Virus record (IMG/VR): IMGVR_UViG_3300010334_006851
Location: 62,001-126,000 of that record
DNA length: 64,000 nucleotides
Direction: 5' to 3' (one strand)
Origin: a virus
In this document: in pieces, positions 37,687-62,437 of the stretch
Numbering within the stretch: position 1 is the stretch's first letter
Layout: the number at the start of each line of letters is the position of its first letter
Notes under the pieces: generated by a model
The model's input: the letters and a program-made list of their open reading frames with translations, nothing else
The model's database searches: none
What the model was told of the DNA's origin: nothing
Made by a program: the position numbers and the translations under genes

Positions 37687-38040
37687 ATGGACAAACCTAT
37701 ACCAATACCAAAAAGAGCGTGCACTGGTACTCAAAGGATAACAAAGAATTATTTTTTGTCAATTCTGCCAAGCAGGCCAGATCCAACATATGTTATCGAA
37801 GTATCCACTGGACAGAAGATAAGAATTGACTCCATAAACAGTGTACGCGAACCTTTAAACTTAAAGAATGGCCTATACAAGTACAAATATATGCCTATAG
37901 AAACTTATGAACCAAGAAAAATGCTTCTATCTCTAAAAGACAACGACTGGAGAATTTATAGCTTTAATCCTCTCACAAGAGAGATATGCTTTTCTATAAA
38001 AGATCGTAAACTATCCTACACAGTCCCAGATTATTTCTGA
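37687..38040 (+). CDS. Unknown 117-residue protein
   Basis: MDKPIPIPKRACTGTQRITK, basic and beta-rich, ending YTVPDYF. Convergent overlap of 10 nt with the glutamate dehydrogenase gene. The CTCTAAATACAT sequence before the ATG looks promoter-like. No family recognised. Confidence 0.6.
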   Translation: MDKPIPIPKRACTGTQRITKNYFLSILPSRPDPTYVIEVSTGQKIRIDSINSVREPLNLKNGLYKYKYMPIETYEPRKMLLSLKDNDWRIYSFNPLTREICFSIKDRKLSYTVPDYF

Positions 38041-39284: not shown

Positions 39285-39332
39285 AAATAAAGTACCCCTT
39301 GTTAAATTTATTAGAGTTATTTGGAGATAATA

Positions 39333-40700
39333 ATGAAAACATTCCTTGAAAGCTTGAACATAACCAAGAACACTAGACTATTAGAACAATTGATTTTAAA
39401 ATTAGAGTACTTAGGAATAGACTCTAACGAATTCTTGGATTGGTACATAGAAGAAGGCATCAATCTACAGAAAAAAGGTTTATTGATAGAAGGTTTTGAT
39501 GATTGGGCCTTAAGAGAAGGTATTTGGGATAGTTTCAAAAGTAGATGGTTTGGAGGCAAAAGTTCAGGCCAGGGTCAAGACCACACAGACTCTTCAACAG
39601 TGCAAAGAATTAAAAACGCAGGAGAGAGGGCAGGCCAATTCGTCCACAACCAAGGTAACCGCGTGGGAAAAGCACTTGGGTGGGCTAGAGACGCTTATAA
39701 TAGTTTTAACAAAGGCGTACAAGGCGATAATTCAAATAACGTAGATAAGCATACTTCTAATCCTTCTGTTGTAGAAAAAGCTAAAGAAGCTTTGTCTAAT
39801 TTATCTAAAAGAATACAATATTCTAAACAGCTTCAGTCGATTCTAGGTCGTGACAATGAAAGTATTATACAGCTTTTAAATGCACTCCAAAGCGTCAAAG
39901 AATCTTTTGATATAAGAAATAAACTCATTTTTTTGAAGTCTAACGGTTTGGATGTAGAGCAACTGGTAGAGCTGTTTATACAAGAAAAATCGAATATCAA
40001 CGAGGGAATAGAAGACTGGTTTGGAAAGGTTGGTGATTGGTTCAAGGGTCAATGGGCAAATGTAAAACATGCTTGGAACACTTGGGGCGATGGCCAAGAG
40101 GGAGAAGCAGTAAGAAGAGACAAACAAGCTGTGGATAACGCTATGAATGCACTACAAGACTTACAGCAAAATAGTAGCAACAATGAAGCCATTTCAAAAT
40201 TTAAAGATACAATAAACCAAATAATTGATAAAATAAATTCGGCAAAGCAGGCTCTAAATCAAACAGGAAGTGAGCCGCAAAACAAACCACAGTCTGCACC
40301 ACAGCCTGCACAAAACCCAGGTCCAGCTTCAGCAGCTCCTGGAGTTACTGGAGTTACTGTTTCTTCCACAGCAGGAACGCCTTCCAATCAGGACGGTTCT
40401 TCTCAAAGTGGTTGGCTTGGTAGTGGCTCAAATCAAGACGGTTCTTCTCAAAGTGGTTGGCTTGGTAACAACTCCGGAGATGTACAACAAAATTATTTAG
40501 GAAAAACTCAAATGTACGGTCGCCAACCTAAGCCGGGAGTTAAAAAGCCTGCTGGGGGATGGCCAAACCCAGGAACTGGTACTACAGATGTGGGCTCAGG
40601 AGTTCAAAATAGCTCAACAAACTATGACTCCGATGAAAACAAAAAGTTTCTAGAGTCTTTGCTACCAAAATCAAACAAGTTCTCTTGGTTTGGATATTAG
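39333..40700 (+). CDS. 455-residue Gly/Gln/Asn-rich virion-like protein
   Basis: The start is ATG 39333 with GGAG 6 nt upstream, giving MKTFLESLNITKN, a leader like the head-targeting sequences. Two modules of similar plan follow: EGFDDWALREGIWDSFKSRW (about 51-70) and EGIEDWFGKVGDWFKGQW (about 226-243), each followed by a polar low-complexity linker. The last part has two copies of DGSSQSGWLG. The shape suggests a duplicated aromatic, helical unit in a flexible virion protein. It is not a known family. Terminates at a hairpin-rich region. Confidence 0.7.
   Translation: MKTFLESLNITKNTRLLEQLILKLEYLGIDSNEFLDWYIEEGINLQKKGLLIEGFDDWALREGIWDSFKSRWFGGKSSGQGQDHTDSSTVQRIKNAGERAGQFVHNQGNRVGKALGWARDAYNSFNKGVQGDNSNNVDKHTSNPSVVEKAKEALSNLSKRIQYSKQLQSILGRDNESIIQLLNALQSVKESFDIRNKLIFLKSNGLDVEQLVELFIQEKSNINEGIEDWFGKVGDWFKGQWANVKHAWNTWGDGQEGEAVRRDKQAVDNAMNALQDLQQNSSNNEAISKFKDTINQIIDKINSAKQALNQTGSEPQNKPQSAPQPAQNPGPASAAPGVTGVTVSSTAGTPSNQDGSSQSGWLGSGSNQDGSSQSGWLGNNSGDVQQNYLGKTQMYGRQPKPGVKKPAGGWPNPGTGTTDVGSGVQNSSTNYDSDENKKFLESLLPKSNKFSWFGY
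40385..40468 (+). repeat. Tandem coding repeat, two near-identical units
   Basis: Two 37-bp nearly identical units (about 40385-40421 and 40432-40468) encode NQDGSSQSGWLG, spaced by a short linker. Confidence 0.85.
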
Positions 40701-40705
40701 TGAAT

Positions 40706-40776
40706 GCTCCCACCCCCTAAAGGGAGTGGGCTTCTAAGACATTGCTGTCTAAAGAGTTCATCTCTTATAATGAACT
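40706..40776. other. Three stacked hairpins between convergent genes
   Basis: From left: a GC-rich stem about 40709-40730 with a short loop, a 5-bp stem AGACA/TGTCT with a 4-nt loop at 40737-40750, and AGTTCAT/ATGAACT at 40755-40776. They fill the space between the ends of two converging genes. No U tract follows on either strand, so a simple intrinsic terminator is not the whole story. The GC-rich one recalls IS605-type ends, which I rejected for want of any transposase. Confidence 0.6.
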
Positions 40777-40948
40777 AAGACTTAAGCGTTTCTTTTAAGC
40801 CTAAAATTAAATAGTGCACGCAAATTGCAACAAGACATAAACAAGATAAAGCTTCTGTAACTTTTAGTGAGTTGAATAGAAGAACACTTAAGTAAGCACA
40901 AGACAATATTGGCTGTATTGCGAATAAGAATAGCAATATTTTTGACAT
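40775..40948 (-). CDS. 57-residue two-span membrane protein
   Basis: ATG 40948 to TAG at 40775: MSKILLFLFAIQPILSCAYL begins a very hydrophobic N-terminus, a second hydrophobic segment (ALSCLCLVAICVHYLILG) follows, and the tail is KETLKS. The hydrophobic pattern is far better in this frame than in the alternative overlapping frame from a TTG at 40967. Lies 16 nt after the lysine aminotransferase on the same strand. A transporter accessory or holin-like role cannot be assigned. Confidence 0.55.
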   Translation of the reverse strand: MSKILLFLFAIQPILSCAYLSVLLFNSLKVTEALSCLCLVAICVHYLILGLKETLKS

Positions 40949-40963
40949 AAAGTATGTATGTCT

Positions 40964-42235
40964 TCAAATACTGTTTTTAATATATTCTATAGCTTCATCT
41001 ACATTTTGCTTTGTAAATATAAGGTGAGGTCTTAGTCTAATAGACTTTTTACCGCAGGGTAAAACAAGCATTTTTTCTCTTAGCTTCTTTAGAACTTCAT
41101 CTCTTCTAGACGGAGTTTCTAAGTCGAAAGCAAGCATTAAACCTCTTCCCCTAACATTGTTAATCTCATCAACACCATTCAGCTTGTCTAGAAAGTAGCT
41201 GCCTACTGTGGAAGCGTTTTCTACTAGATTAAGTTCTTTAATTACACGTATTATCTTAGTAAATCTTAGCATGTCCACAACATTTCCACCCCATGTGGAG
41301 CTTATTCTGCTGGATTCATTGAACACATTATTATCTATATCTTCAATCCTGTTGGTAGAGGCAAAGCCGCAAACTTGTGTCTTTTTTCCGAATGATATCA
41401 TGTCTGGAATAATTCCATAATGCTCATAGGCCCAAGTTGCACCAGTCAGACCAACTCCTGTCTGTACTTCGTCCAAAATTAGCAGACACTCATAGTCATC
41501 TGCCAATTTTCTGATAGCTTTAAAATATTCTGTTCTAAAGTGATTGTCACCTCCTTCACCTTGAATTGTTTCCAGAACAATTGCTGCTACTAAGTTTGAT
41601 TTAAGGGCTCTCTCTGTTTGAAGAAGACTGAGCTCCTCAACCAAGGATGCTTTGCTTTCTACCACAGGAAATTCTATCTTTGGATTTTTCACTCTTGTCC
41701 AATTAAACTTTGGAAAAAGAGCAGTCTTGTTTAGTACCGTGTTCGTTAAAGAGAGGCAGTATCCACTTCTTCCATGAAAGGCTTCCTCTAAGTGCACAAC
41801 ATCCATTTTATTTACTAGAAATTCTTTTGCACTATAATTTAGCCCCAGCTTTTTAGCTTTCCAGTCAAACGCACATTTAATTGCATTTTCTACTGCTAAT
41901 GTTCCTCCGTCTATAAAGAACAGATGGTTAAAGTCAGGTGTAATTTTAGAAAACTCTTCTATAAAATTAGCATAAGTTTCTGTGTAAAAGTCACAATTAG
42001 CTATTTTGTTTAAGCAACAGAACTCTAACTCATCTGGACTTGCAAACATTAATTCCTTAAGTCTTGGATGATTCCAACCAAGAGGCATACTGGCATATTG
42101 TGATGCACAATCTAGATAAGAGGTTCCTGAAATTTTATCTACCAGATAAACGCCAGCACTCCTTTTGGGGTCGATTACAACCTTTTCTCCATCACCTACT
42201 GTGTATTTGCAAATTATTTCGTGGACTCTATCCAT
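40964..42235 (-). CDS. lat: L-lysine 6-aminotransferase (class III aminotransferase)
   Basis: 423 residues. The N-terminal GVYLVDKISGTSYLDCASQY, LGWNHPRL, ILDEVQTG (253-260) and FGKKTQVCGF (282-291, PLP lysine is one of K284/K285) follow the pattern of lysine epsilon-aminotransferases. It would move the epsilon amino group of lysine to 2-oxoglutarate, giving aminoadipate semialdehyde and glutamate. Substrate by motif similarity; ornithine or another omega-amino acid is possible. ATG overlaps the stop of 42235-42546 (TAATG). Confidence 0.85.
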   Translation of the reverse strand: MDRVHEIICKYTVGDGEKVVIDPKRSAGVYLVDKISGTSYLDCASQYASMPLGWNHPRLKELMFASPDELEFCCLNKIANCDFYTETYANFIEEFSKITPDFNHLFFIDGGTLAVENAIKCAFDWKAKKLGLNYSAKEFLVNKMDVVHLEEAFHGRSGYCLSLTNTVLNKTALFPKFNWTRVKNPKIEFPVVESKASLVEELSLLQTERALKSNLVAAIVLETIQGEGGDNHFRTEYFKAIRKLADDYECLLILDEVQTGVGLTGATWAYEHYGIIPDMISFGKKTQVCGFASTNRIEDIDNNVFNESSRISSTWGGNVVDMLRFTKIIRVIKELNLVENASTVGSYFLDKLNGVDEINNVRGRGLMLAFDLETPSRRDEVLKKLREKMLVLPCGKKSIRLRPHLIFTKQNVDEAIEYIKNSI

Positions 42236-44601: not shown

Positions 44602-47037
44602 TTAAGGTACGCATGGAGCATAGAACGGTGCCCCGCAAACTCTTTCTCCGTTAGCATTTGTCATGTCGGGATGACAATTGTCTGTGCAGGATCCAAGAGA
44701 ATATTCATAATACCCTGGGCATTTCCCACCAGGAGCGTTTATACAATCGTCACCAGCCTCAGAATTATAGCACTGCCATATAAAAACTACTTCCCCATCA
44801 CACCACGGTGGGGGGGGTGGAGTTTGGGGGGGTGGAGTTTGGTAAGTTGGTGGGGGTGTAGGCACAGGTATACATGTATAGTTTTCACATGTATAACCTG
44901 AAGGGCATCCGCAGAATCCACCGCACTCATCGCTTAAACCACAGCCATTTTCTAGACACTTAGGAACACATTTGGTAGGAGTCGGATAAGGAGTCGGATA
45001 AGGAGTCGGATAAGGAGTGTAAGTAGGTGGATATGTTGGTGGCACCGTAGGTGTAGGTGTTTCACAGTAGCTACACGGCAAGCACATGCCACGGCAGTAG
45101 CACCAATCGCATGGACAACATGTAATTCCGGTGTCCGTTGTAAACGGACACAGCAGTATGATTTTACATGGATCTGGATATGTTGGCGTAGGTGGAACAG
45201 TTGGCGTTGGCTCCGGTGTAGGCGTAGGCTCGTCCGTGGGCGTAGGCGTTGGTGGTTTTGTTGGTGTAGGCGTTGGTGGTTTTGTTGGTGTAGGTTCTGG
45301 GGTTTTTGTTGGCGTGCTTGTTGGTGTGCCTGTTGGTGTGCCTGTTGGAGTTCCTGTTGGAGTCTCTGTTGGAGTCTCTGTTGGAGTCTCTGTTGGAGTC
45401 TCTGTTGGAGTCTCTGTTGGAGTCTCTGTTGGAGTCTCTGTTGGAGTTTCTGTTGGAGTCTCTGTTGGAGTTTCTGTTGGAGTTTCTGTTGGAGTTTCTG
45501 TTGGAGTTTCTGTTGGTGTTTCTGTTGGTGTTTCTGTTGGTGTTTCTGTTGGTGTTTCTGTTGGTGTTTCTGTTGGTGTTTCTGTTGGTGTTTCTGTTGG
45601 CTTTCCCGTAGTCGTTACCGTAGGCGTTGGCGTGGGCGACGGCGTTGGTGTTGGCGTTGGTGTTGATTCAACGCATGTCCCAGAGCCACTTCCGTCCTCC
45701 TGACACACGTATCCATCTGGACATCCACAGAAGGTTTCAATGCAATTATTAATGTTGCATCCTGGATCACCCCCGCAAATATAACCTGTACCACACCTTG
45801 GGGCTGATCCTTCTGGGCCTTGCAACACCGGGATGTAATCATAGCCACCGTATGGGTTAGCAGTCTTAACCATTACAAATTCATTCTGTGGGCAACCTGG
45901 GCAGGTCACTACTGGTGTTGGAGTGGGTGGTTCTGTAGGCGTTGGAGTAGGTGGAGTTGTTGTTGGAGTTGTTGTTGGTGTTTCTGTTGGTGTTTCTGTT
46001 GGTGTTTCTGTTGGTGTTTCTGTTGGTGTTTCTGTTGGTGTTTCTGTTGGAGTTTCTGTTGGAGTTTCTGTTGGTGTACTTGTTGGAGTTAGAGTGTTAG
46101 TGTTAGTTGGTGTAGGAGTAGGAGTGTTAGTTGGTGTAGGAGTAGGAGTACAACCTAAATCACAATCTTTTTTACTCTTATAACATCCATCACAGGGAGA
46201 TCCATTGTCTACACAGTTTCCATCAATACACATCCAATTACAGTCACTACACTGACACTCACATGTACCACAACCAGGCAAGCTAGGATCGTACACCCAA
46301 ACGCCAGGCAATCCACCTGGGCACGGTGATTTTTCACGACATAACTTTTGTAATTCTTCAATATTAGTACATTCTGGTGTTGTTGTTGGTGTTGTTGTTG
46401 GTGTTTCTGTTGGTGTTTCTGTTGGTGTTTCTGTTGGAGTTTCTGTTGGAGTTTCTGTTGGAGTTTCTGTTGGAGTTGTTGTTGGAGTTGTTGTTGGTGT
46501 TGTTGTTGGTGTTTCTGTTGGTGTTTCTGTTGGTGTTTCTGTTGGTGTTTCTGTTGGTGTGTATGTTGGTGTTTCTGTTGGTGTGTATGTTGGTGTTTCT
46601 GTTGGTGTGTATGTTGGTGTGTATGTTGGTGTTTCTGTAATAGTTGGAGTTGGGGTAGCTGTAGGACAAACAGGTATTGAACTATAGTATTCTTCTCCAA
46701 AATCTGAACAATACTGCGGTTTGCAGTTTTGATTTATTACGCCTATGTAAACTTTTTTGGTAACAGACTCATAGGTTCCGTCTAGATTACAGTAATAACA
46801 TGTTGTGTCTTCGTATTTTACACAATTATACGTTAACATTTCTTCGCATGTTTTTGCACATGCACAAAGGCAATCTGTTTGTCCTTTGTAACATGGGTCC
46901 TGCGTGCATTTTCCGAAAGTGCAGTTGCTAGCACAGTCATATCCTTCACAACCAGAAGTACATGGTTTAGCAAGGGAAAATACTACGTTTCCTAAGTCAT
47001 TTAAGAAACCTTTTAATCTATCCCTTATTTTTACCAT
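44602..47037 (-). CDS. Giant Thr/Pro-repeat, cysteine-rich mucin-like protein
   Basis: 811 residues: an N-terminal cysteine-rich part, then three TPTE-type Thr/Pro/Glu repeat blocks (about 132-219, 319-359 and 479-559) separated by Cys-rich modules (e.g. [24 protein letters not shown]), then a Pro/Tyr-rich C-terminal part with further Cys modules. No signal peptide, so if surface exposed it is probably virion-borne. Threonine-rich runs would be ideal O-glycosylation sites, and a CapK-like gene and a GT2 are the two genes directly upstream. Starts 20 nt inside the CapK-like gene. Fibre or adhesin is inferred. Confidence 0.85.
45306..45611 (-). repeat. 12-bp minisatellite, longest Thr/Pro/Glu block
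   Basis: About 20 consecutive 12-bp units of the form GTTTCTGTTGGT or GTTGGAGTCTCT (plus strand) at 45360-45600, with related units at the edge. Each unit encodes the four residues TPTE. All frames stay open through it. Confidence 0.95.
45960..46080 (-). repeat. 12-bp minisatellite, second block
   Basis: About ten units of the same 12-bp repeat; encodes residues about 319-359 of the mucin-like protein. Confidence 0.9.
46380..46640 (-). repeat. 12-bp minisatellite, first block
   Basis: About twenty units, some as TPTY or TPTT variants (GTTGTTGTTGGT, GTGTATGTTGGT in the DNA); encodes residues about 132-219. Confidence 0.9.
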
Positions 47038-49116: not shown

Positions 49117-50160
49117 ATGAGCGGATCTGTTGGATCTATAGCGGACCTTATGCTCGCGAAGCAAAAAAGGCTGCCGATACCTGATCTTGAAGTTAAACGA
49201 ACCATTGTTTCGGATTCATCTGCCGAGCAGATAGAGGCGATTCAGCGTGAGGCTGTGATCAACCGAGATCATTACCTTTCTGAGTCTCGACGTTCTGGTC
49301 TGCCTTGGTTCAAATGCATTCGTAAGCCCATCCAATATAGTGAGTTTGTCATGCTTACTAGAGAGATGGCAGAAGAAATTAAAAAAGACATCTGGTCGGT
49401 TGCCGAAGGCAACAGAAACATCAAAAGGCTCCACGTTGAAGCCTTGCAGCGTGACATTGAAGCAGGAAGATGGCTTCCAACTCATGAATCGATTGCAATC
49501 GATGTCAACGGCCAGACAAACGACGGCCAGCATCGCTTGACTGCTTTTTTGAATTCCTCAAAGTCTGAGGTTTGCTTCTACATCACTTTTAACGTCCTGC
49601 CGGAAGCCAAATTCGCTGTAGACAGTGGATCTAAGCGAAATACTGGTGAAAAGCTCTCCATGATCATTGATAGAAAGTGGGGATCTAAGGTCACTGGCTT
49701 CTGTCGGGCTATAATGCGTGGAGTTAATGCAAAAGCCCGATATACAGATTCCGAGATCGCAGAATTTGCAACCACTTGGGAACCTGTGGTGGAATGGGTC
49801 ATGGATCATTGCCCCAAAGCCGCTGCGGAGATTCAAGCTGCTATTGCCAAGATGTACATTTTTTATGGTCCCGATCTTATCGCTGATTTTTGCGATAGAT
49901 TCAGGAATGTACGCTTTATTGAAGAGGGTGATCCTGCGAAGGCCTTGTATGTTCAAGTGGACCGTATAAAGGGCTGTCCGGACCTTAAGAAATATCGGTT
50001 GACACTTAGTGCATTGAATGCACTAGTGAACAACAGAAAGGTTAAGGTCTTAAGAGAGATCGATGGAGACATCTTTGATTGGGAAAAAGGTCGCTCTAAT
50101 AGAGAGTGGAATGCTCCCAAGGATTCTTGGTGGGCAAGGGTTGGATCGAAGCAAGTTTGA
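49117..50160 (+). CDS. ParB-domain-like protein in its own transcription unit
   Basis: 347 residues. IKRLHVEALQRDIEAGRWLP and ESIAIDVNGQTNDGQHRLTAF are a clear ParB/Srx-like domain (DGQHR phosphoryl/nucleotide loop) of the kind seen in many phages. The C-terminal half is helical and ends in Trp-rich NREWNAPKDSWWARVG. G+C and codon use look higher than in its neighbours. It has its own consensus promoter and strong terminator, so I infer an early, perhaps horizontally acquired gene. Confidence 0.75.
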   Translation: MSGSVGSIADLMLAKQKRLPIPDLEVKRTIVSDSSAEQIEAIQREAVINRDHYLSESRRSGLPWFKCIRKPIQYSEFVMLTREMAEEIKKDIWSVAEGNRNIKRLHVEALQRDIEAGRWLPTHESIAIDVNGQTNDGQHRLTAFLNSSKSEVCFYITFNVLPEAKFAVDSGSKRNTGEKLSMIIDRKWGSKVTGFCRAIMRGVNAKARYTDSEIAEFATTWEPVVEWVMDHCPKAAAEIQAAIAKMYIFYGPDLIADFCDRFRNVRFIEEGDPAKALYVQVDRIKGCPDLKKYRLTLSALNALVNNRKVKVLREIDGDIFDWEKGRSNREWNAPKDSWWARVGSKQV

Positions 50161-50182
50161 CCCTACAATGTGACCTAAGGAG

Positions 50183-50216
50183 GGGCTCTACGTGAAATAC
50201 CGTAGAGCCCTTTTTT
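50183..50216 (+). terminator. Strong intrinsic terminator
   Basis: Ten-bp stem GGGCTCTACG / CGTAGAGCCC with an 8-nt loop and six Ts, 23 nt past the ParB-like stop. Confidence 0.95.
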
Positions 50217-50241
50217 ATAACTATGACAAAAGGTTGAGGCT

Positions 50242-51837
50242 ATGAATCAAATTAAGATAGATTTCTGGATAAGCAACAATCAAAATGTTTTGTTTTCCGG
50301 CAAGCATGGTGTTGGTAAAACAGCTATCGTAAAAGATTCATTTGAGCGTCATGGTCTTAACTACAGGTACTTTTCCGCATCTACTATGGATCCTTGGGTG
50401 GACTTCATAGGAGTTCCTAAAGAAAAGTCCTTAGGGGCATCATCCGAACAAATGCTTTTAGTCAAAGATCTAATCCGTCTTGATCAAAAAATTGCTGTTG
50501 ATTGGGTCATGAAAAACTGGGGCATGAGCAAAGAGTCCTCTGAGAAGATAGTCTCTAGCTTATCTCTTGGAAATGATACCTATTTAGAACTTGTTAGACC
50601 GGAAGTCTTTGCAACTGGTGAGATAGAAGCATTGTTCTTTGATGAATTCAACAGAAGTCCCAAGAAGGTTAGAAACGCAGTCATGGAGCTGCTGCAGTTT
50701 AAGTCAATCAATGGACATGTTTTTCCTAAATTAAGGCTAATATGGGCAGCTATCAACCCAGAAGATGATTCATTGAATTCTTATGATGTTGAAAAAATGG
50801 ATCCGGCCCAAAAGGACAGATTTCATGTATTTGTATCTGTGCCCTACAAACCTAATGTTGAATGGTTTAGGGATAAGTACGGAAAAAAGATTGCAGATGC
50901 TTCTGTGTGTTGGTGGAATGAGTTAGAGAACAAGGATGAGGTTTCTCCTAGAAGGCTTCAATATGCCTTAGACACTTACTTAAAAAAGGGCGATCTTAGA
51001 GACGTTCTTCCTCCATCTAGCAATGTCTCAAAGCTATACAACGCACTCAGCAGCGGACCTGTTTTAGAAAAACTTCATGAATTTATGTCTAGCGGACGGC
51101 AAGAGGAAGCCATAGTATTTCTCTCAAATGAGAACAATTTTGCTTCTGCAATAAAGTACATAGTTAAATCAAACGATTTAATGGCATACTTTCTTCCTCT
51201 GATACCAAAGGAAAAAATATCTGCAATTCTCTCACAAAACGATAGCACTTCTTCGTTCATAATTTCCAACTCTCTTCGTGTGCCAGTTTTTAAAGAGATT
51301 TGTGGCGAAGTAATAAAGGCATCAACAAACAGTTCCTTAGTAAAAAAAATACGTAGACATTTTACAGAATCTCAGTTTGTTATGAACGAAGGAGTTGGGA
51401 AGTGTAAATTCTTCTGCAATAAGAATGTAGACCAAAACGTCTGGGTGGACCTGTTGAAGGCGATGTCAACTCTGGATACAAGAAAAGATAGGCTCAATAT
51501 AATGTCCAACATAGCCTCAAATATACCGGAAAATATTTATTTGCCACAGATAAAAACTTGTCTTGACCTTATTTCTAAGCTAGACCCTGAGCCGTCAGAG
51601 ATTGTTGAAGGAACGATAAAAGCTACTCCTTGGTCGAATTTTGTTGAGATCGTCAACCATTTAATTCGTGAGGGTATTTCTTTATCATCTTTGGACAAAG
51701 AATTTCTTCCTGTGCCTCGTGATCAAGCTTTGATATCGTTTAAAGAATCCAACATTCAATCCTTATCAAAGATCTATGCGGCTATAAAGTTGGCTGGTTT
51801 TGAGGAATCAGTAATTAGATCGTGCGAGCAATTATGA
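50242..51837 (+). CDS. MoxR-type AAA+ ATPase
   Basis: 531 residues. Walker A GKHGVGKT (20-27), Walker B EALFFDEFNRSPKKVRNAV, sensor segment RLIWAAINPEDDS and PAQKDRFHVFVSVP are MoxR hallmarks. The C-terminal 250 residues are an extra helical region of unknown role. MoxR ATPases act with a VWA protein to remodel a target, as in RavA-ViaA. Here the VWA partner is the next gene, coupled by ATGA. Confidence 0.88.
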   Translation: MNQIKIDFWISNNQNVLFSGKHGVGKTAIVKDSFERHGLNYRYFSASTMDPWVDFIGVPKEKSLGASSEQMLLVKDLIRLDQKIAVDWVMKNWGMSKESSEKIVSSLSLGNDTYLELVRPEVFATGEIEALFFDEFNRSPKKVRNAVMELLQFKSINGHVFPKLRLIWAAINPEDDSLNSYDVEKMDPAQKDRFHVFVSVPYKPNVEWFRDKYGKKIADASVCWWNELENKDEVSPRRLQYALDTYLKKGDLRDVLPPSSNVSKLYNALSSGPVLEKLHEFMSSGRQEEAIVFLSNENNFASAIKYIVKSNDLMAYFLPLIPKEKISAILSQNDSTSSFIISNSLRVPVFKEICGEVIKASTNSSLVKKIRRHFTESQFVMNEGVGKCKFFCNKNVDQNVWVDLLKAMSTLDTRKDRLNIMSNIASNIPENIYLPQIKTCLDLISKLDPEPSEIVEGTIKATPWSNFVEIVNHLIREGISLSSLDKEFLPVPRDQALISFKESNIQSLSKIYAAIKLAGFEESVIRSCEQL

Positions 51838-53045
51838 GCATCAAGATTGAAAATGATGAATGGATGGATTTATTGTTCTCTTTGGAGAACCACCATGCGG
51901 TGTTTTACAAACTTTGGCAGATAGGCAAGCCTCTATTCACAGAAGAGATAGAGACCGCAGCCTGCCAGTTTGATAAGTCCGGTAACTTTGTTGTGTTTCT
52001 TTTTAACCCTGAATTTTGGAATAGCTTAGATCAGTATAACAGGCTGTTCGTAATATGTCATGAATGCTTGCACTTGATGCTTAACCATGGAGTTCGTATT
52101 AAGGATTCTAAGTTTTCAAACAGACAAGCTTGTAATCAATGCTTAGATGTCGTTGTCAATCACTTATTGGTTGAAAGCTTTAATTTCGATAGAAATAAGC
52201 TTTTTGATGGAGAAAGCTACTGTTGGGTTGACACAGTGTTCCCTGATACTAATGTTTCTACAAAGGAGACTTTTGAGTATTACTATCAGCTTTTCGAAAA
52301 GTCTTATGGAGACGGATCACCTATAGCAGACACACATACTGTTGATGACCACAAAGCCATGCAGTGTGATTCTTTCAACCCGATAGATGTTGTCTCGCAA
52401 ATGTCTGACTTTGAAAAAGGCACACTCTCTGTTCTGTCAAAGCATATCGGACAGGAAAAAGGAAAAGATTGGGCGATAATTACTGGGCGACCAAAAATTA
52501 AGCAGAAGTGGGAAAGCGTGATCAAAAATTGGTCAATTAGAAGAAAAAAAGATATTACCAAAGAGTTGGAACAATGGGCTAGATTGAACAGAAGATTGTC
52601 TCCAATGCGATCAGACTTAATGCTCCCATCGGAGATGGAAGTTGATGACTGCTTATTTGAGAAATCCAAGATAAGAGTTTGCTTTTTTCTTGACTCCTCT
52701 GGCTCCTGTTGGCATCTAAAAGACAGGTTTTTTCAAGCGGCCTTGTCGCTTGACCCTAAAATGTTTAGTGTAGACCTTTTCTGTTTCGATGTGGCTGTCC
52801 ACAAGGTGGACCAACGGGAATTGAAGGTTTTTGGAGGTGGTGGAACTTCATTTGCCATAATAGAGAGCCACCTCCAAGACTCTGGCGAAAACTATCCGGA
52901 TGGCGTATTCGTAATTACAGACGGGTTCGGAGACAAGGTTCTACCTAAGTTTCCAAATAGATGGAATTGGTTTCTTACGGAGGATGGAAGAGACTCTCTC
53001 TTGCCAAAAAACAGCAACGTTTATCAACTTTCAGACTTTGAATGA
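51834..53045 (+). CDS. VWA protein with HExxH metallopeptidase-like domain (DUF2201-like)
   Basis: 403 residues from ATG 51834, which overlaps the MoxR stop as ATGA. HECLH at 76-80 is the HExxH zinc motif, and VCFFLDSSGS contains the MIDAS DxSxS at 287-291; a GGGGTSF segment follows. Zinc peptidase and VWA form the DUF2201-type architecture. In MoxR-VWA pairs the VWA protein is the adaptor. Protease activity is not proven. Confidence 0.82.
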   Translation: MSIKIENDEWMDLLFSLENHHAVFYKLWQIGKPLFTEEIETAACQFDKSGNFVVFLFNPEFWNSLDQYNRLFVICHECLHLMLNHGVRIKDSKFSNRQACNQCLDVVVNHLLVESFNFDRNKLFDGESYCWVDTVFPDTNVSTKETFEYYYQLFEKSYGDGSPIADTHTVDDHKAMQCDSFNPIDVVSQMSDFEKGTLSVLSKHIGQEKGKDWAIITGRPKIKQKWESVIKNWSIRRKKDITKELEQWARLNRRLSPMRSDLMLPSEMEVDDCLFEKSKIRVCFFLDSSGSCWHLKDRFFQAALSLDPKMFSVDLFCFDVAVHKVDQRELKVFGGGGTSFAIIESHLQDSGENYPDGVFVITDGFGDKVLPKFPNRWNWFLTEDGRDSLLPKNSNVYQLSDFE

Positions 53046-53060
53046 AATAGGAGAATGATT

Positions 53061-53486
53061 ATGAATCGAACAGCACAAATCAATAGCGTAGTTAACCAAA
53101 TGGTCCGCTGCGGAAGAGAGAATGTGAAGATATCTGCAGAAAAGAAAGAGCATTATGCTTGTGAATATGAGCAAGAGATATTTCTTGCTCTGGACTTGAT
53201 ACCGCAAGCACAAGCCACCTTCCAAGCTGTTGTTGCAAAAAAACTTAAGTCTGATGAACGAGAAAAAGTCATTAAGTTTTGCATTGACTTTAAAAACAGG
53301 AATTTTTCTGGTCCTAATGATCCTATTTTTTTGCTTTGGAGATTTTTGAAGACCGCAAATAGAAAGCCTAGCAATCTCTATCCTAGTGTTTCTTATGCTT
53401 TGAGGTCTTATTTGGACGGCAAAAAGATTAGATCTATTAGAAATGATAGGTCTTTTAAAGACATTATGGAGAAGGAGATGGTGTAG
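53061..53486 (+). CDS. Unknown 141-residue helical protein of the MoxR operon
   Basis: ATG 53061 (MNRTAQINSVVNQMV) with AGGAG 8 nt before; an in-frame ATG at 53055 is too near the RBS. Basic, helix-rich (SSYALRS region near SYALRSYLDGKKIRS). Convergent with the nuclease gene, overlapping 23 nt. Probably the third component of the MoxR set, by position only. Confidence 0.6.
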   Translation: MNRTAQINSVVNQMVRCGRENVKISAEKKEHYACEYEQEIFLALDLIPQAQATFQAVVAKKLKSDEREKVIKFCIDFKNRNFSGPNDPIFLLWRFLKTANRKPSNLYPSVSYALRSYLDGKKIRSIRNDRSFKDIMEKEMV

Positions 53487-54024
53487 TATCTATAAAAAAG
53501 TCATCTTCCAACTTCAATAGCTCTTCTAATGCTATTATGGACCAAGGTCCATAATTAAGTTGATACTTAAATTCTTGAGGAAGGTCTTTGGTTAAGACAA
53601 CACAAAACCAGGGTCTTCTTTTTTTCTTCCAACAAAGCATTGGTTTTCTGCTACATCTTTTTGCATCCTTAGAAACCTGGCTTAGGAATCCGTCTAATTC
53701 TGTGCTTCCTTTGATGAAAACCGAGTTTAAATCTATGCCTTCATATCCGCCTTTGCTCTCAAGAACAAATTTGAATCCTTGCGGCACCACCAGATCACCA
53801 GAAAAAACCTCTCTAGCATGTTGAGGTAGGTTGTTAACTTGTGACCATCTATTCCCAGAGCCAACGGATCTGCTAAAGCCAGTACCAAATCTTTTATTCA
53901 AGATTTTTGAAAGCTCTAGCTCTACTCTATTTCCTTTTTTCTTTCCGTTGATTCTTTTTTTCTTTTTTTCGAATATTCCTTCGTCCGTGATGAAATCTTC
54001 TGAATCTTCAAATTCATAACTCAT
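53464..54024 (-). CDS. PD-(D/E)XK nuclease, Holliday-junction-resolvase-like
   Basis: 186 residues. KGNRVELELSKILNKRFG is the Glu-bearing helix, SGDLVVPQGFKFVLESKGG is the D ... E-x-K site, as in Hjc-type resolvases and related phage endonucleases. C-terminal Ser/Pro tail. It could resolve branched DNA during recombination-dependent replication. The CATATATAATTG sequence before the ATG may be a promoter. Confidence 0.7.
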   Translation of the reverse strand: MSYEFEDSEDFITDEGIFEKKKKRINGKKKGNRVELELSKILNKRFGTGFSRSVGSGNRWSQVNNLPQHAREVFSGDLVVPQGFKFVLESKGGYEGIDLNSVFIKGSTELDGFLSQVSKDAKRCSRKPMLCWKKKRRPWFCVVLTKDLPQEFKYQLNYGPWSIIALEELLKLEDDFFIDTTPSPSP

Positions 54025-54055: not shown

Positions 54056-55162
54056 CTAAAAGAAATGTGATAATAATTTGGCAATAGAGTTATCTATTTC
54101 TTTGAGTTGGTTAATGGTTTCTTCAAAAAGTTCTTTTTCCATGGTCTCTTTGTTGACCGCATAACGTAGTTCTAACTCTACATTTTTTGCCTTTTCTATT
54201 ATTCTAGCAACATACTCTTCGGCCGAATTTAGATCATATTCGCTCCATAAAGAACTTCTTTCTTTTCTAATAATCTGATCGTTTTCATCTAGTTTCGATA
54301 TTAAGTTGAAATGAGGCGTTCCACTTGGTATCGTAAAAAATTCTTCCCCCACCTCCTCAGACTCGTCCCCAAGTGTAAGTCTGTATCTGTTAGAGCTTAA
54401 TGTATTGTCTACTAAACTTAAATGCCAAATTTCTTTTGGATGTACTTCAATTAGTTTGTAGCACATAGATAGAAGCCTACTATCACACTCATTACACGCT
54501 TCTTCCCATATGCTAGGTTCTGATACAAAAAATACTTGTCCTAATTCTTCCCTTAAGTCCGATATCCACAGTGGCCTGTACTCGTTTCTAAATAGAAGTA
54601 GTGATCTTTGTCCGCTTTCTTGTCTTATTCCTGTTGCTACGGCCATATGGCCAAATTGTATTAAGCTAAATATTCTTTTAACTGATTCTAGCTCTCTATC
54701 AACTATTGTTTTGTTTGATTTTATGGTGGACTCAAAAATACGAAGAAGAATTTCAGAATCGCATTGGGTAGAAACTTCATAGTTTTTTCTTAACTCATAA
54801 TATTCATCGTCTTCTATTCTTCCATTGTGTGCTAAAGCTATTGTTTTGTCGTTCGACGTAAAGGGGTGGTTGTTTTCATTAAAAAATGGTTCCCCTACAC
54901 CTTTCGAGGCTCCTCTGGCATGAGCTATAACTAAATCAACTTCAAAGTTAGACAAACCAGACCAGAATCTACTTTTTACGAAGCTACTAGACCTTGTTGG
55001 TTCTTTGTGATAGATCACGCTGCCGTTGAAACCACACTCGGCAGCCCAAAAGCCAGCAGCGTCTGTACCTCTAGACTCACTCTTTTCAAATAGTTTTGTT
55101 AAAAGCTGATAGCTTAAGTTCTTATCTTTTGATTTACCAATAAAGCCAGTTATGCCACACAT
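54056..55162 (-). CDS. Class II glutamine amidotransferase
   Basis: 368 residues. MCGITGFIGK puts the nucleophile Cys at position 2 after Met removal, and SRGTDAAGFW, DLVIAHARGAS and IALAHNGRIEDDEYYELR are Ntn amidotransferase motifs. The C-terminal 130 residues are helical and unassigned. It would release ammonia from glutamine for a partner synthetase, which is not adjacent; the amidoligase at 12927-13898 is the only obvious candidate in the window. ATG overlaps the preceding stop. Confidence 0.85.
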   Translation of the reverse strand: MCGITGFIGKSKDKNLSYQLLTKLFEKSESRGTDAAGFWAAECGFNGSVIYHKEPTRSSSFVKSRFWSGLSNFEVDLVIAHARGASKGVGEPFFNENNHPFTSNDKTIALAHNGRIEDDEYYELRKNYEVSTQCDSEILLRIFESTIKSNKTIVDRELESVKRIFSLIQFGHMAVATGIRQESGQRSLLLFRNEYRPLWISDLREELGQVFFVSEPSIWEEACNECDSRLLSMCYKLIEVHPKEIWHLSLVDNTLSSNRYRLTLGDESEEVGEEFFTIPSGTPHFNLISKLDENDQIIRKERSSLWSEYDLNSAEEYVARIIEKAKNVELELRYAVNKETMEKELFEETINQLKEIDNSIAKLLSHFF

Positions 55163-55356
55163 TAATTTTCTTCTTCCTTTTGGGCTTTATTGCCGCCCTG
55201 GAAAAGTCTCCATCCGTGTGCTGCTATTGCACAAAGTTCTTCAAAAGAATATTCGGATAGAGGAATGCCAAAGAATGTAGCATTCTCTGCTTCTTTGAAC
55301 CATTCCCGAGGCAGGTTGCTGTGAATGGTTAAATCGTAACCTTTTTTATCTAGCAT
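55162..55356 (-). CDS. Unknown 64-residue protein
   Basis: MLDKKGYDLTIHSNLPREWF, helical with a Lys/Glu tail. Its stop overlaps the amidotransferase ATG (TAATG), and it starts 3 nt after guaC. Small subunit or regulator is possible. Confidence 0.6.
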   Translation of the reverse strand: MLDKKGYDLTIHSNLPREWFKEAENATFFGIPLSEYSFEELCAIAAHGWRLFQGGNKAQKEEEN

Positions 55357-55358
55357 AA

Positions 55359-56414
55359 TTAGTGGTTGTTAGAAACTCTTACAAATTTTGCACACTTGTT
55401 AAAGTCTTTTAGTTTTCCTGCTCCTATGTAGGCACCGCAACTTCTTAACCCCCCTAAAATTTCCTGTACAATACTAGAAACTGGACCCTTGTACGGTACT
55501 TTAGAAACCTTACCTTCGGATGCTCTGTATTCTTTCTTTCCTGCTCCGTGTTTTTCTTGAGCATAGTGGCTGCTCATTCCATAGAAAGTAAGAGATTTCT
55601 TCGCACTCGAAACAACTCCACCATTGTTTTCGTACTCCCAGTCTCCCTCACACTCATCTGCCCCAGCAAACATGCCCCCTATCATCACCCAGTCCGCACC
55701 AGAGCATATGGCCTTACAGATATCACCAACGGTCTTGCATCCTCCATCGCTCATTACCAATCCTAGCTTTCCATCGCCAGAACTTAATCCATGAGCTGCG
55801 TGGGAGCACTCTACGTTACATGAAAAGGTGCCATATCCTACACCAGTCATTTTTCTAGTTTCACATTGTGATCCGGGCCCTATTTGGATTTTACATATGT
55901 CTACTTTTCCATGGATAATTAGCTCTTGGCATATTTCTGGTGTTGTGACGTTTCCTGCACAAATTATACTTTCTGGAAATTCCTTTCTTACAGTAGCACA
56001 AAAATGTACAAAGCTTTCCATATATCCGTTTGGAACATCTATTACAATGTTTGTTGGCTCTCCCAATAGTTTGCTCACAGCTTTAATTTTTTCTAGATCA
56101 TCATCAGATTTGCCTATAGTTGTCCAAGCGTATGCTATGCCTGCTTCCTCTATAATCCCTGCTAGTTCTTCTGCACTGTAATACTTGTGCAACGCAGTTG
56201 CGATCTTATAAGAGGACAACTTAATAGCCATCTTTTTTGATGTAAGGGGGACCATGTTGGAACACATTAGAGGAATTCCAGTCCACACTCTTGGGCTGTA
56301 GTAAAACTTAAAATTTCTTTCTAAAGCAACTTGCTTTCTGCTTTCTAGGGTGGTTCTTTGAGGAACAATTAGAACATCATCATAATTTAATTTTACTTCT
56401 GGAGCTAAAAACAT
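55359..56414 (-). CDS. guaC: GMP reductase
   Basis: 351 residues from ATG 56414 with AGGAG 7 nt upstream; E. coli GuaC has 347. KIQIGPGSQCETR places the catalytic Cys at 184, GADWVMIGGMFAGADE binds the ribose phosphate, and FYGMSSHYAQEKHGAG plus YRASEGKVSKVPYKG is the GMP-reductase type of the IMPDH/GMPR family. It converts GMP to IMP and ammonia with NADPH. No CBS domain, which also separates it from IMPDH. Confidence 0.92.
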   Translation of the reverse strand: MFLAPEVKLNYDDVLIVPQRTTLESRKQVALERNFKFYYSPRVWTGIPLMCSNMVPLTSKKMAIKLSSYKIATALHKYYSAEELAGIIEEAGIAYAWTTIGKSDDDLEKIKAVSKLLGEPTNIVIDVPNGYMESFVHFCATVRKEFPESIICAGNVTTPEICQELIIHGKVDICKIQIGPGSQCETRKMTGVGYGTFSCNVECSHAAHGLSSGDGKLGLVMSDGGCKTVGDICKAICSGADWVMIGGMFAGADECEGDWEYENNGGVVSSAKKSLTFYGMSSHYAQEKHGAGKKEYRASEGKVSKVPYKGPVSSIVQEILGGLRSCGAYIGAGKLKDFNKCAKFVRVSNNH

Positions 56415-56515
56415 TGTAAATCTCCTAGTTTTTGAAAGAACCAAGCAAGTTAGATTTTATTGTTTTTATGATCAAAGTCAAGGATAATTTACTTTTTAAA
56501 AGGAAGAAGCTTGGG

Positions 56516-56523
56516 CATAAATA
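56516..56523 (+). promoter_or_regulatory. CATAAATA, late-type promoter
   Basis: One base from TATAAATA, with the ATG at 56545 and an AGGA 6 nt before it; leader about 15 nt. Confidence 0.45.
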
Positions 56524-56544
56524 GTTTAAAAGGGAAAGGAAAAA

Positions 56545-56814
56545 ATGAATTTCTTCGAATTAGACCAACAAGTATCACAGCAGACTAGCTTAACCCCTGC
56601 GTCGAATGACGAGACAGGCATTGATAAAAATGGCTACATAAGAATAGCTGGTAAAATTGCACAAAAGCTAGGAGAAAAGTCAAATACCTATACTCCTTTG
56701 GTTAGATATGTTGCAAGAAACCCCAAAATGTTGCAATTACTAGAGAAGTTAATAGAAGAAACAAGTCTAGCTCAATCTGGTAAGTTGAAAGCTGTTGTTT
56801 CAAGCTACAAGTAG
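56545..56814 (+). CDS. Unknown 89-residue, late-type gene
   Basis: MNFFELDQQVSQQTSLTPAS, a polar N-terminus then a helical basic domain (GYIRIAGKIAQKLGEKS, KMLQLLEKLIEETS). Preceded by CATAAATA, pointing to late expression. It is convergent with the 56816 gene. The N-terminus is only weakly like the leader family. Confidence 0.6.
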   Translation: MNFFELDQQVSQQTSLTPASNDETGIDKNGYIRIAGKIAQKLGEKSNTYTPLVRYVARNPKMLQLLEKLIEETSLAQSGKLKAVVSSYK

Positions 56815-56815
56815 T

Positions 56816-57370
56816 TCACATAGCACTTAGTTGCTGCCCAGACTGTCCTGCTAATGAGGGTTGATCTGTTAGTTGGGGATCTTTATTTACTGGTGCTCCC
56901 GGCATTGGGTCTTTTTCTATATCCTTTTTCTCTTGAGGCGGTTTATATTGATCCCGAACAGGCTTGACTGTGTTTGACGTGCCTCTTGAGTCCGATGCAC
57001 TTTCAATACCTTCTGTTCCTTCTGGCGAAGCAATTTTATTTATTGGGGAACCTATTTTCTTTACTAGGTTATTCAAGGCATCCGCAGACCCAGAAACAGT
57101 CTTTTCTAAATCGCCTTTTTCTTTTACGGCTTTTATGATCGCTACACCAATTTTTTGCAAATCTTTTAGATAAACTTGGTTCTCTTTTGACCAATAACTG
57201 TGTAAGACTCTCCTTATTTGATTGACTATTCTTTCTGAAAATCTGGAGAGGTCCCTTGACCCCATCCTTCCAGACTCGCCCTTTAGTTCTTCGGCCGCAG
57301 CTAGAATGTCTCCTATCTTTTGGCCAAGATACTGTTTCTGCTCGTTTATTATAAATTCTTTAAATTTCAT
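56816..57370 (-). CDS. 184-residue protein with strong capsid-targeting-like leader
   Basis: MKFKEFIINEQKQYLGQK matches the leader pattern (Ile-x-x-Glu at FIINE). Residues 20-110 are helical and basic with SGRMGSRDLSRFSERI; the tail from 110 is Pro/Gln/Asp-rich (KPPQEKKDIEKDPMPG), probably disordered. Its ATG overlaps the nrdJ stop (ATGA), so it is translated after the reductase. Virion role inferred from the leader. Confidence 0.7.
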   Translation of the reverse strand: MKFKEFIINEQKQYLGQKIGDILAAAEELKGESGRMGSRDLSRFSERIVNQIRRVLHSYWSKENQVYLKDLQKIGVAIIKAVKEKGDLEKTVSGSADALNNLVKKIGSPINKIASPEGTEGIESASDSRGTSNTVKPVRDQYKPPQEKKDIEKDPMPGAPVNKDPQLTDQPSLAGQSGQQLSAM

Positions 57371-59637
57371 GCTTCTTTCTTAAAGTCTATTGGGCAAGCT
57401 CCACCATCACATCTTACATGATCTTGATCAACGTCCTCTTTAAGGGAGGATGTTATTGTTCTTATGACGTTTTCGTACTCTGCTTTAGTGACAGCCTCTT
57501 CAGGTAGATATTCATAACTGCTACGATCTTCTTGAGGCATCACAGAACAGCACTTAATTCTACTCTGATTTTCTTTAAGAGTTTCTGAAAATTGCTTGAA
57601 ATCAACCTTGTTTGGGTTATATTTCAATGTATAGCTTATTTGGTTTCCTGTATCTTTTTCTAGGAGGTTACCTTTTTCATCTACACCTCTTATCCAATAC
57701 TTTTCCCCTAGCATAAGCCATTTATACTGATCCTCTGGGCTGGCCTCAGAGGCAGTAACTAGTCTATCTTCCATTCCAAGCTCTGTTATTACTGGTGTGG
57801 TTGGGAACCCAACTATTACCGTGTTCTGGTAGCTAGTTAGCTCTCTTACCGGATAACCAGATTTTTCGTACTTCTTGACCAAGGGATCAGATTTGCTGAA
57901 CTGAACCCATCTTAGATACCACCTCATAGAAGGAAGGTGCCAACCCTCAGTCAACCCAAACAACTTGCTTGTTGTACCAGCGGGTTTAATAGTTGTATCT
58001 GAGTGTGGAACTGTGACGCCTAATTTCTTTGAATAGGCTTTTGCCTCATCTTGGACAGCTCTTTTGAATCGTGACATTGTCATCCAAAAATCTTTAGACT
58101 TTTCTTCGTCTACAAGATCACTAAAACCAAGTTTAAAGAATTTCCATGCAAACTCATGGATGCCCGTAATACCAACTCCAATTCTGTTCGTTCTTTTTAC
58201 TTCCTTTTTATAAACACTATCCATTGTGTTTACTCTAATTAATGCCCTAGTAACAGATCTGAAGGCTTCCTCTGCTTCGTCTAGAGTCTCTGCGTGATAC
58301 GGCACAACGTCAGCGATTGTGCAGAACGCTCCCCATACTGCAATTGATATTTCGCCACACGGATTAGTTATCATGAAGTTCTGCTTTTTAACAGCCTTCT
58401 TTAACAGTCTGTTTATGTACAAATGTGTATCATCATTCAAAGAATACTTTTTGCTACCGATGAGACATTCTGTACTGATCAGTTTTTCTGTGCCGGACTT
58501 ATCTTGATTTAGTTTGTCAACGTTGATAAACCCTGGCTCTCCTGTTCCGTCTCCATACGAAGCAGAAACAGCTAGCTTATAAACACTTCTTGCGTGTTTT
58601 GCGATTTCTGAATTATATTCATCTGAACCTTTTTTGACATTCAAGAGTCGCCAGAACTCTTGGTCAACAGTGATGCTATTGTTTGATGACCATAAGAAGC
58701 CCATGGGGCTCATGTTCTTTCTTATTTCTGTTATTTCTTCTACATTTTTTCCTGTAAATTCAATTGGTCTTTTTATTGTTATAAACTCTAGGACGCTTTC
58801 ATCTTCCCAGGTCTTTGTTGACATTCGAGCTGCTCTTCTTGCTCCTCCAACAAGAACACACTCTGCAAAATAGTGGTCAATATAGATGGTTTGCATCCAT
58901 CGCGGCAGTCCCGTGTTCTTCATGGTTGCTGCTTTGTTAAACGCGTTCATCAATGGCACAGGACCGCTTGCTGGCCTTTTTTGCATACCATTTATCGGGG
59001 CACCCTTAGGCCTAATTGCTGAAAAATCTAAGATAAACAGCTTGTCTTTGTGTATCTTTTCGAAGGCGGCGTTTTCCCATATTTCTAACGCTTTGGCCCA
59101 TCCTTCTCTTGTGTCGTCTACTAAGTGCCAAAGTACATCCTTCCCACTTCCGTACTTGTGCTTTGCATCTCTTACTGACTCATGTGCCGAAAAATCAAAG
59201 TTGGGATGGTTCTCATCTAACACACAACGTAAAGCTGGTGCATTGTCCCAATCTACAAGCATCATGTCGTCATCGTAGCTTCTTCCTACGCCTGAGCCAT
59301 TCATCAATAAATAAAATAGCATGAAGCTAGTGCTTGATGTCGAGCAATTAGTAAAAACCTCCATGTTCCTCTCAGCCTGTAATTCATCACCATGCTGGAG
59401 ATGCCTACCGCTCATTAATGTCGTAGCATTTAGTAAATGCCTGTATAGAACCTCGTATTCTTTTTCTTGTTCTTCTTTGTCTTTGCAAAGCTTTGCATTT
59501 CCTAAAGCAACACGATGGGCAACATCATTCCATGTTTCCCACCTTCCATCTTCTTTTTTTCTTAGTATTGTTCTCTCGGCAACAGCTTGTCCCATACCGG
59601 CATGAAAGGTTCTAGTCTTCTTATTCTGCTTTGACAT
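57367..59637 (-). CDS. nrdJ: Class II (B12-dependent) ribonucleotide reductase
   Basis: 756 residues. TNCSTSSTSF and MNGSGVGRSY near the start, MITNPCGEI in the middle (NPCGEI loop), TIKPAGTTSKLFGLTEGWH and a C-terminal C-x5-C shuttle pair (RCDGGACPID) are signatures of the single-chain adenosylcobalamin reductase. It makes dNTPs from NTPs without oxygen or a second subunit but depends on host cobalamin. Same-strand neighbours are gp46 upstream and the 56816 gene downstream. Confidence 0.95.
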   Translation of the reverse strand: MSKQNKKTRTFHAGMGQAVAERTILRKKEDGRWETWNDVAHRVALGNAKLCKDKEEQEKEYEVLYRHLLNATTLMSGRHLQHGDELQAERNMEVFTNCSTSSTSFMLFYLLMNGSGVGRSYDDDMMLVDWDNAPALRCVLDENHPNFDFSAHESVRDAKHKYGSGKDVLWHLVDDTREGWAKALEIWENAAFEKIHKDKLFILDFSAIRPKGAPINGMQKRPASGPVPLMNAFNKAATMKNTGLPRWMQTIYIDHYFAECVLVGGARRAARMSTKTWEDESVLEFITIKRPIEFTGKNVEEITEIRKNMSPMGFLWSSNNSITVDQEFWRLLNVKKGSDEYNSEIAKHARSVYKLAVSASYGDGTGEPGFINVDKLNQDKSGTEKLISTECLIGSKKYSLNDDTHLYINRLLKKAVKKQNFMITNPCGEISIAVWGAFCTIADVVPYHAETLDEAEEAFRSVTRALIRVNTMDSVYKKEVKRTNRIGVGITGIHEFAWKFFKLGFSDLVDEEKSKDFWMTMSRFKRAVQDEAKAYSKKLGVTVPHSDTTIKPAGTTSKLFGLTEGWHLPSMRWYLRWVQFSKSDPLVKKYEKSGYPVRELTSYQNTVIVGFPTTPVITELGMEDRLVTASEASPEDQYKWLMLGEKYWIRGVDEKGNLLEKDTGNQISYTLKYNPNKVDFKQFSETLKENQSRIKCCSVMPQEDRSSYEYLPEEAVTKAEYENVIRTITSSLKEDVDQDHVRCDGGACPIDFKKEA

Positions 59638-61729: not shown

Positions 61730-62437
61730 TCAAACGCTTTTTTTGATTAGTTTTCTCAACGTCACAGTTTTGCCATCTATAAACTTAAGATATCCATCGT
61801 TTTTTCTGTCATGAAATAAAAACCCCTTACCTTCTAACAGAGGTTTTAGGCTTCCTGTTGGGTGTATTACCTTAGGCTTCTCTCCCTCTATCTCTAACTT
61901 TTTAGATTCTATTTGGGATAGACCTGTAAAATTCCAAGTATTACTGATATGTCTTATAAATTTTTCAAAATGATCAATTAAGCATTTAAATACTGCTGGA
62001 GAAGTGATGGGTTGCTTTGCGGTCTGCATGAAATTCATTATATCTTCTACAAAGGCCCATTGATAGTGGGGTCCGGCTATAAAACCCGGGTTTCCATTCT
62101 CGGTCAATAGTATTTTTTCATTTATTTCTTCAAATATTTTGTCTATGTTCTCTTCAAAGAATACGTCGGCGTCCCAATACACAAATTTGCCTTTGTTCTC
62201 TTTTGCGTACTTTGATACTTGTTTTATTGTTTCTATTCTTATGTCGTTAGCCTCTGACCCCGTTATTATTTTGGCCCCTTTTTCTAAGATTTTCTTCTTA
62301 GATAAGCCATGTAATCCACAATCAACTACTATAATTTCTCCTTGGTATTTTGCCACTTCTCTTAAGGTGTATATCCAAGAAGATCCAAAGTGGTCCCAAT
62401 ATTTTTCGTTGAGTCCAGTGAATACGTGATTACTCAT
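61730..62437 (-). CDS. Glycosyltransferase-like protein between gp46 and gp47
   Basis: 235 residues. KFVYWDADVFFEENID carries a D-A-D metal motif, and GEIIVVDCGLHGLSKKKI a Rossmann-like strand. The overall pattern is GT-A. ATG overlaps the gp47 stop (ATGA) and it ends 7 nt before gp46, so the three genes form one transcript. A sugar enzyme inside the recombination nuclease operon is unexpected. Target unknown. Confidence 0.65.
   Translation of the reverse strand: MSNHVFTGLNEKYWDHFGSSWIYTLREVAKYQGEIIVVDCGLHGLSKKKILEKGAKIITGSEANDIRIETIKQVSKYAKENKGKFVYWDADVFFEENIDKIFEEINEKILLTENGNPGFIAGPHYQWAFVEDIMNFMQTAKQPITSPAVFKCLIDHFEKFIRHISNTWNFTGLSQIESKKLEIEGEKPKVIHPTGSLKPLLEGKGFLFHDRKNDGYLKFIDGKTVTLRKLIKKSV

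Follow-up and report, generated by a model that had tools for sequence, protein, structure and literature searches.

A MoxR ATPase and VWA-metallopeptidase pair nested between a ParB-like gene and a copy of its C-terminal domain in a virus locus

In NorQ/NorD, CbbQ/CbbO and RavA/ViaA, the clients of the ATPase and its partner are respiratory or Rubisco enzymes, and we know of no HExxH domain in the partners NorD, CbbO and ViaA. MoxR-VWA pairs are also widespread in phages, being core genes of N4-like phages and present in several jumbo phages, and the combination of MoxR with an HExxH/VWA protein has already been published (Iyer et al. 2021, PMC7824862). No report of a phage client of such a pair was found. 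Here we analysed a stretch of 64,000 nt (the window), which covers positions 62,001 to 126,000 of IMGVR_UViG_3300010334_006851, an IMG/VR virus contig of 126,562 bases in which end repeats are absent. A preliminary description of this DNA had proposed a three-gene remodelling module; our analysis resolves this ‘trio’ into one pair of genes nested inside another: the inner one is an old ATPase-protease core, and the outer one, ParB/small, is optional.

The locus and its ATPase-metallopeptidase core

Three ORFs lie on one strand, at 50242-51837 (531 aa), 51822-53045 (407 aa) and 53055-53486 (143 aa), and a ParB-like gene, which lies beyond the interval of the preliminary description, sits just upstream of them. 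The features of the locus are as follows.

49117-50160 (+): ParB/sulfiredoxin-fold protein, 347 aa, phrog_5931-like (ORFs, profiles and structure model)
49522-49536 (+): DGQHR motif, residues 136-140 of the ParB-like protein
49678-50109 (+): helical domain at the C-terminus of the ParB-like protein (about residues 188-331), with homology to the small gene (hhalign)
50176-50217 (+): intrinsic-terminator-like hairpin and U tract between ParB-like and MoxR genes (RNA fold)
50242-51837 (+): MoxR-type AAA+ ATPase, 531 aa, with a long C-terminal extension
50299-50322 (+): Walker A GKHGVGKT, MoxR residues 20-27
50632-50646 (+): Walker B LFFDE, MoxR residues 131-135
51834-53045 (+): zincin-like metallopeptidase and VWA protein, 403 aa; the ORF reaches GTG 51822
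52059-52073 (+): HExxH, VWA-protein residues 80-84 (numbered from 51822)
52146-52148 (+): candidate third metal ligand D109 of the VWA protein
52692-52706 (+): MIDAS DSSGS, VWA-protein residues 291-295
52845-52847 and 52920-52922 (+): MIDAS T342 and D367 of the VWA protein
53061-53486 (+): small protein, stand-alone copy of the ParB-like C-terminal domain; ORF from 53055
53464-54024 (-): PDDEXK-fold nuclease (Pfam PDDEXK_15), a neighbour that we treat as context rather than as a part of the machine

The VWA gene most likely begins at ATG 51834, so that its start and the MoxR stop codon share an ATGA, and the small gene most likely begins at ATG 53061, with GGAG shortly before it. Pairwise dN/dS was 0.04-0.10 for the ParB-like, MoxR and VWA genes and 0.07-0.22 for the small gene, and because of these low values we regard the genes as being under selection and not in decay. 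The MoxR, VWA and small genes are real and intact, as judged by their ORFs, conserved active sites and low dN/dS, and gene decay in relatives, a possibility raised in the preliminary description, was not seen (dN/dS 0.04-0.22, metal sites kept). On one 146 kb contig (L115:3650-7542) every gene of the module is split into overlapping frames, a pattern that suggests indels from sequencing more than decay of the genes.

By its sequence motifs, gene 1 is classified as a MoxR-type AAA+ ATPase. Walker A (G20-T27), D134/E135 of Walker B and the sensor-1 residue N172, together with R193 of the DRF motif and R237/R238 of the SPRR motif (Arg finger, sensor 2), are invariant or nearly so among 11 sequences. 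The protein matches PHROG 1297 (E 1e-17), and its alignment finds 2r44 as the best match among PDB profiles (E 1.3e-5) followed by CobS, while the Pfam AAA_3/AAA_5 matches are weak and under the curated cut-off. Two MoxR paralogues occur near one VWA gene on a 494 kb contig (L118, 5237-6859 and 13186-14715).

Gene 2 combines a zincin-like HExxH domain with a VWA domain whose MIDAS is intact. Its Pfam DUF2201_N match scores 29.4 bits against a cut-off of 23.2, and all 63 cluster representatives, AR9 and the N4-like phages among them, share H80-E81-H84, R92, N105, D109 and N113. The MIDAS residues D291, S293, S295 and D367 are present in all of the 63 representatives but one, which has a gap, and T342 in 61/63. 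The predicted C-terminal domain matches VWA domains, with VWF A2 at Z 11.9; the VIA search for gene 2 covers residues 279-407 only, and neither the VWA nor the ParB-like profile found a useful match among PDB sequences. In most huge-phage members the C-terminus of the VWA protein reads LxD(F/Y)E, which is absent in the AR9 or N4-like ones. Public records (phrog_1314, RefSeq) label this family ‘HNH endonuclease’; the label was rejected, as no HNH family was found in Pfam or NCBIfam scans, and our analysis thus corrects a widespread annotation of the VWA-metallopeptidase.

The ParB-like protein and the copy of its C-terminal domain

The sequence of the ParB-like protein has no Pfam match at E<=1, and the PHROG ParB-like match is at E 0.34 only. 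In comparisons of its structure model, the best 11 rows were all Srx/ParB/Noc with modest Z scores (4.3-4.8), and in Foldseek the best 9 rows were all ParB/Noc. DGQHR is the NTP-pocket signature of the DndB/GmrS/Srx group (PMC4619093), and NTP binding, in some cases of ATP, has been demonstrated for phage members of the ParB/Srx fold (PMC12704722). Judged by this motif, the ParB-like protein probably binds an NTP.

The product of the small gene is mainly helical and matches residues 190-331 of the ParB-like protein in hhalign (99.6%, E 7.5e-25). Direct comparison with the ParB-like C-terminal domain gave E 2e-12 between the two proteins of LR756511, a 595 kb uncultured phage, and only 0.017 within the window. 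At the level of sequence profiles, the small gene is thereby identified as a stand-alone copy of the ParB-like C-terminal helical domain, and the reading of gene 3 as an unknown small helical protein was rejected. The preliminary description of a third small helical protein therefore holds as to its helical nature, but the gene is not an orphan. When 23 ParB C-terminal domains and 14 small proteins were placed in one tree, the two groups split cleanly (100/100), and did so in every bootstrap tree; the small copies thus form one clade apart from the parent domains, which points to one old duplication followed by parallel descent.

Two further observations concern this pair. DGQHR reads NGRHR or NGQHR in most of the loci that carry the additional genes X and Y described below (e.g. 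L011, L044, L053), and is kept in most loci without them (e.g. the window, L017, L032), L058 and L104 being exceptions. In L083 (10445-10909 and 11679-12629) the small gene has a degenerate ParB N-terminal domain in its vicinity, possibly the remnant of a duplicated full-length ParB-like copy.

Distribution, neighbourhood and transcription layout

The VWA proteins from scans of IMG/VR formed 63 clusters (95% identity), and 56 of these are of huge-phage type; single window proteins gave no matches, and the clusters were found with alignment-based scans. In all 56 huge-phage clusters the gene immediately before VWA is MoxR, and the preliminary description was right on the coupling of MoxR with a DUF2201/VWA protein. 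The order ParB-like, MoxR, VWA, small, PDDEXK is identical in LR756511, and the gene set is repeated on the MAG contig L150. A bacterial origin was rejected, since only three loci were found in 84,980 species genomes, all of them in MAGs and one clearly with a phage neighbourhood; the window module looks like a phage family.

Among 44 clusters with enough flanking sequence, 12 carry both the ParB-like and the small gene, 2 the ParB-like gene only, 30 neither and 0 the small gene alone. The small gene is therefore present in 12/14 ParB-like loci versus 0/30 loci without ParB-like (Fisher p 4e-9, not corrected for kinship), and these counts are not phylogenetically independent because all carriers belong to one 28-member clade (support 90/82). 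In 7 of the 12 loci the small gene lies <=300 bases after VWA, and in the other 5 it is 3.4-5.6 kb downstream, where the gap mostly holds two recurrent genes, X and Y. Gene X belongs to no family and has no cultured-phage match; gene Y is PHROG 4776, a family with no assigned function that also occurs in over 100 mycobacteriophage records. Within our survey both are found only in ParB-like-bearing loci, and in a sister lineage (L078:8304-9758 and L078:9813-10964, and equivalents) they lie inside the ParB/small bookends. X and Y were rejected as missing members of the module, since single-protein searches, which distant copies could escape, did not turn up either gene in the window genome, in L024, in LR756511 or in three further records. 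Conversely, L027/L028 (ParB-like, small) and L058 (ParB-like, Y, X, small) have no MoxR or VWA on their contigs of 85, 47 and 37 kb. The locus thus has the ParB-like and small genes at its ends and variable content between them, and with the core standing independently of ParB/small in 30/44 clusters and the converse in L027/L028 and L058, neither pair needs the other. Thus, of the three-gene module first proposed, the MoxR-VWA core stands; the small gene is adjacent to it in only 7/44 clusters, and descends with the ParB-like gene, which had been omitted.

The whole neighbourhood of the pair is syntenic, so that adjacency alone is weak evidence. A PDDEXK nuclease is conserved near the pair in 43/56 huge-phage clusters, and a T4-type baseplate gene (PF12322) in 40/56, nearly always just upstream; another conserved gene adjoins it in 42/56. 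The window contig also encodes a UvsW-like helicase, a RecA-like recombinase, a family-A DNA polymerase, a DnaB-like helicase and a ribonucleotide reductase, and no structural gene was found among its scanned ORFs. At 44602-47037 (-) the window encodes an 811-aa protein with long TPTE/PTTTPT repeats broken by cysteine-rich modules and no Pfam match, possibly a fibre or surface protein. Metabolic genes occupy 38031-42235 and 54056-59637 (glutamate dehydrogenase, class-III aminotransferase, class-II glutamine amidotransferase, B12-type ribonucleotide reductase and what we take to be an IMP-dehydrogenase-like protein).

The hairpin at 50176-50217 has a predicted folding energy of -25.6 kcal/mol (z -6.8), and the consensus terminator scan of the tool itself did not list it. 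Perfect-stem hairpins with T-rich stretches after them are present between ParB-like and MoxR in most scanned relatives. With the intergenic stretch alone, 8/9 of those tested outscored every one of 500 shuffles, and the one that did not was L024, whose gap is very short. No comparable terminator-like element was found in the window at either junction within MoxR-VWA-small. From a hairpin after the ParB-like gene and none inside MoxR-VWA-small, we infer that the latter three genes probably form one transcription unit and the ParB-like gene a separate one. Some relatives of the X/Y type have a hairpin between MoxR and VWA as well.

Proposed function and comparison with known systems

By family analogy with NorQ/NorD, MoxR would assemble into an AAA+ ring with the VWA protein bound to it, and we consider this pairing very likely. 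In favour of it, the C-terminus of NorD contacts the NorQ ring (PMC13036017), and most huge-phage VWA proteins have the conserved C-terminal LxD(F/Y)E. On the same analogy we propose ATP-driven client remodelling, in which the VWA domain would grip the client through the MIDAS metal, ATP hydrolysis would twist or pull it, and the zincin-like domain may cut the gripped client; active proteolysis by gene 2 seems somewhat more likely than not. In a mirror-tree comparison of 11 genomes, MoxR and VWA diverge together (r 0.97, and 0.89 after control for the neighbouring nuclease). The small protein, having the helical domain only, could pair with or mimic the ParB-like protein, and we lean towards the view that it pairs with, caps or competes with it. 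It is a tentative suggestion that the ParB-like complex would be the client or targeting platform of MoxR-VWA, with the small protein as adaptor. In the most specific version, unlikely in our judgement, the small protein, derived from the tail domain of the client, would mimic the substrate and act as an adaptor, bringing the MoxR-VWA protease to a ParB-like protein that sits on phage DNA and is switched by NTP; if it were true, this would be a phage-made ATP-driven device for the release or destruction of a DNA-bound protein. Taken as a whole, the explanation that we favour has the MoxR-VWA core acting on a phage complex by remodelling or cleavage; that complex may be the ParB-like one, and the small protein would serve as partner or adaptor. 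Its probability falls somewhat short of an even chance: families, active sites, gene order, duplication, co-occurrence and transcription layout are observed, and from these we infer the contacts and the client.

Two pairs that are merely neighbours would be about as likely as this proposal. Here the ParB-like and small proteins form a separate system, e.g. an NTP-controlled DNA-binding protein with a regulatory copy of its domain, kept beside the core through conserved gene order only. The loci with ParB-like and small genes and no MoxR or VWA (L027/L028, L058), the presence of X and Y inside the bookends in many relatives, and the terminator between ParB-like and MoxR all speak for such a separation, whereas the ParB-like gene is almost always directly upstream of MoxR in the window lineage, the compact form has the small gene in the MoxR-VWA unit, and the small protein tracks VWA and MoxR in its divergence no less closely than it tracks the ParB-like protein (partial r 0.75 and 0.72 versus 0.60). 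The mirror-tree comparison fails to separate this reading from the proposed one.

That MoxR-VWA serves as a tail or baseplate assembly chaperone which also processes structural proteins, with ParB/small as passengers, we consider less likely than not. The frequent closeness of the PF12322 baseplate gene is in its favour, as are the use of a MoxR-VWA pair for tails by the archaeal virus ATV, the like proposal of Iyer et al. for group 2.2 jumbo phages (PMC7824862), and a single ATPase peptide in particles of Staphylococcus phage DC4, which the authors themselves treat as weak evidence (PMC10638138). However, a baseplate homologue was not detected near the pair or on the contig in the window and in L024 (381 kb), and the timing of expression also gives reasons to doubt that the pair serves virion assembly only. 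In AR9 the pair gp028/gp029 follows an annotated early promoter, while 41/43 virion proteins are late (PMC5312081), and the N4 homologues are middle genes (PMC4193335); such early or middle expression speaks against a role in virion assembly only. The preliminary description also raised superinfection immunity. In favour of an immunity or conflict system of the bacterial VMAP ternary kind is the shared MoxR and VWA core plus a third gene (PMC7159879), but PADLOC gave no defence-system match, the locus has no effector domains, the third component looks different, and the pair is retained steadily through a large phage clade instead of patchily. Immunity is hence without support and very improbable.

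Among known systems, the jumbo-phage pair of Iyer et al. (PMC7824862), with AR9 gp028/gp029, N4 gp24/gp25 and Schitoviridae homologues (PHROGs 1297 and 1314), has the same adjacent MoxR and DUF2201-type HExxH/VWA genes. HExxH, D109 and the MIDAS residues are identical, although the window VWA protein is only about 23-25% identical to those of cultured phages. With NorQ/NorD, CbbQ/CbbO and RavA/ViaA the window pair shares an AAA+ MoxR protein and a VWA partner with a conserved C-terminus. Acidianus two-tailed virus p618/p892 is likewise a virus-encoded MoxR-VWA pair, but without a peptidase domain (PMC7824862). In comparison with the VMAP systems (PMC7159879), the locus has an extra metallopeptidase domain, its third gene is a copy of a domain of the ParB-fold protein encoded upstream, and the PADLOC scan gave no VMAP match. 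ParB, Noc, Srx, DndB and GmrS share the N-terminal fold and the DGQHR/NGRHR motif with the ParB-like protein, which differs from them in carrying a helical C-terminal domain of its own that has also been copied into a gene by itself; no ParA gene was noticed adjoining it. In the literature searched we found neither the bookend layout nor a derivation of the small gene from a duplicated domain nor the repeated co-occurrence, and PMC7824862 makes no mention of ‘ParB’. What the window lineage adds to the published pair is thus the ParB-like gene and the copy of its C-terminal domain; this suggests that ParB/small bookends around MoxR-VWA are a new arrangement, and the duplicated domain flanking the pair points to a concrete candidate for the client and one for the adaptor.
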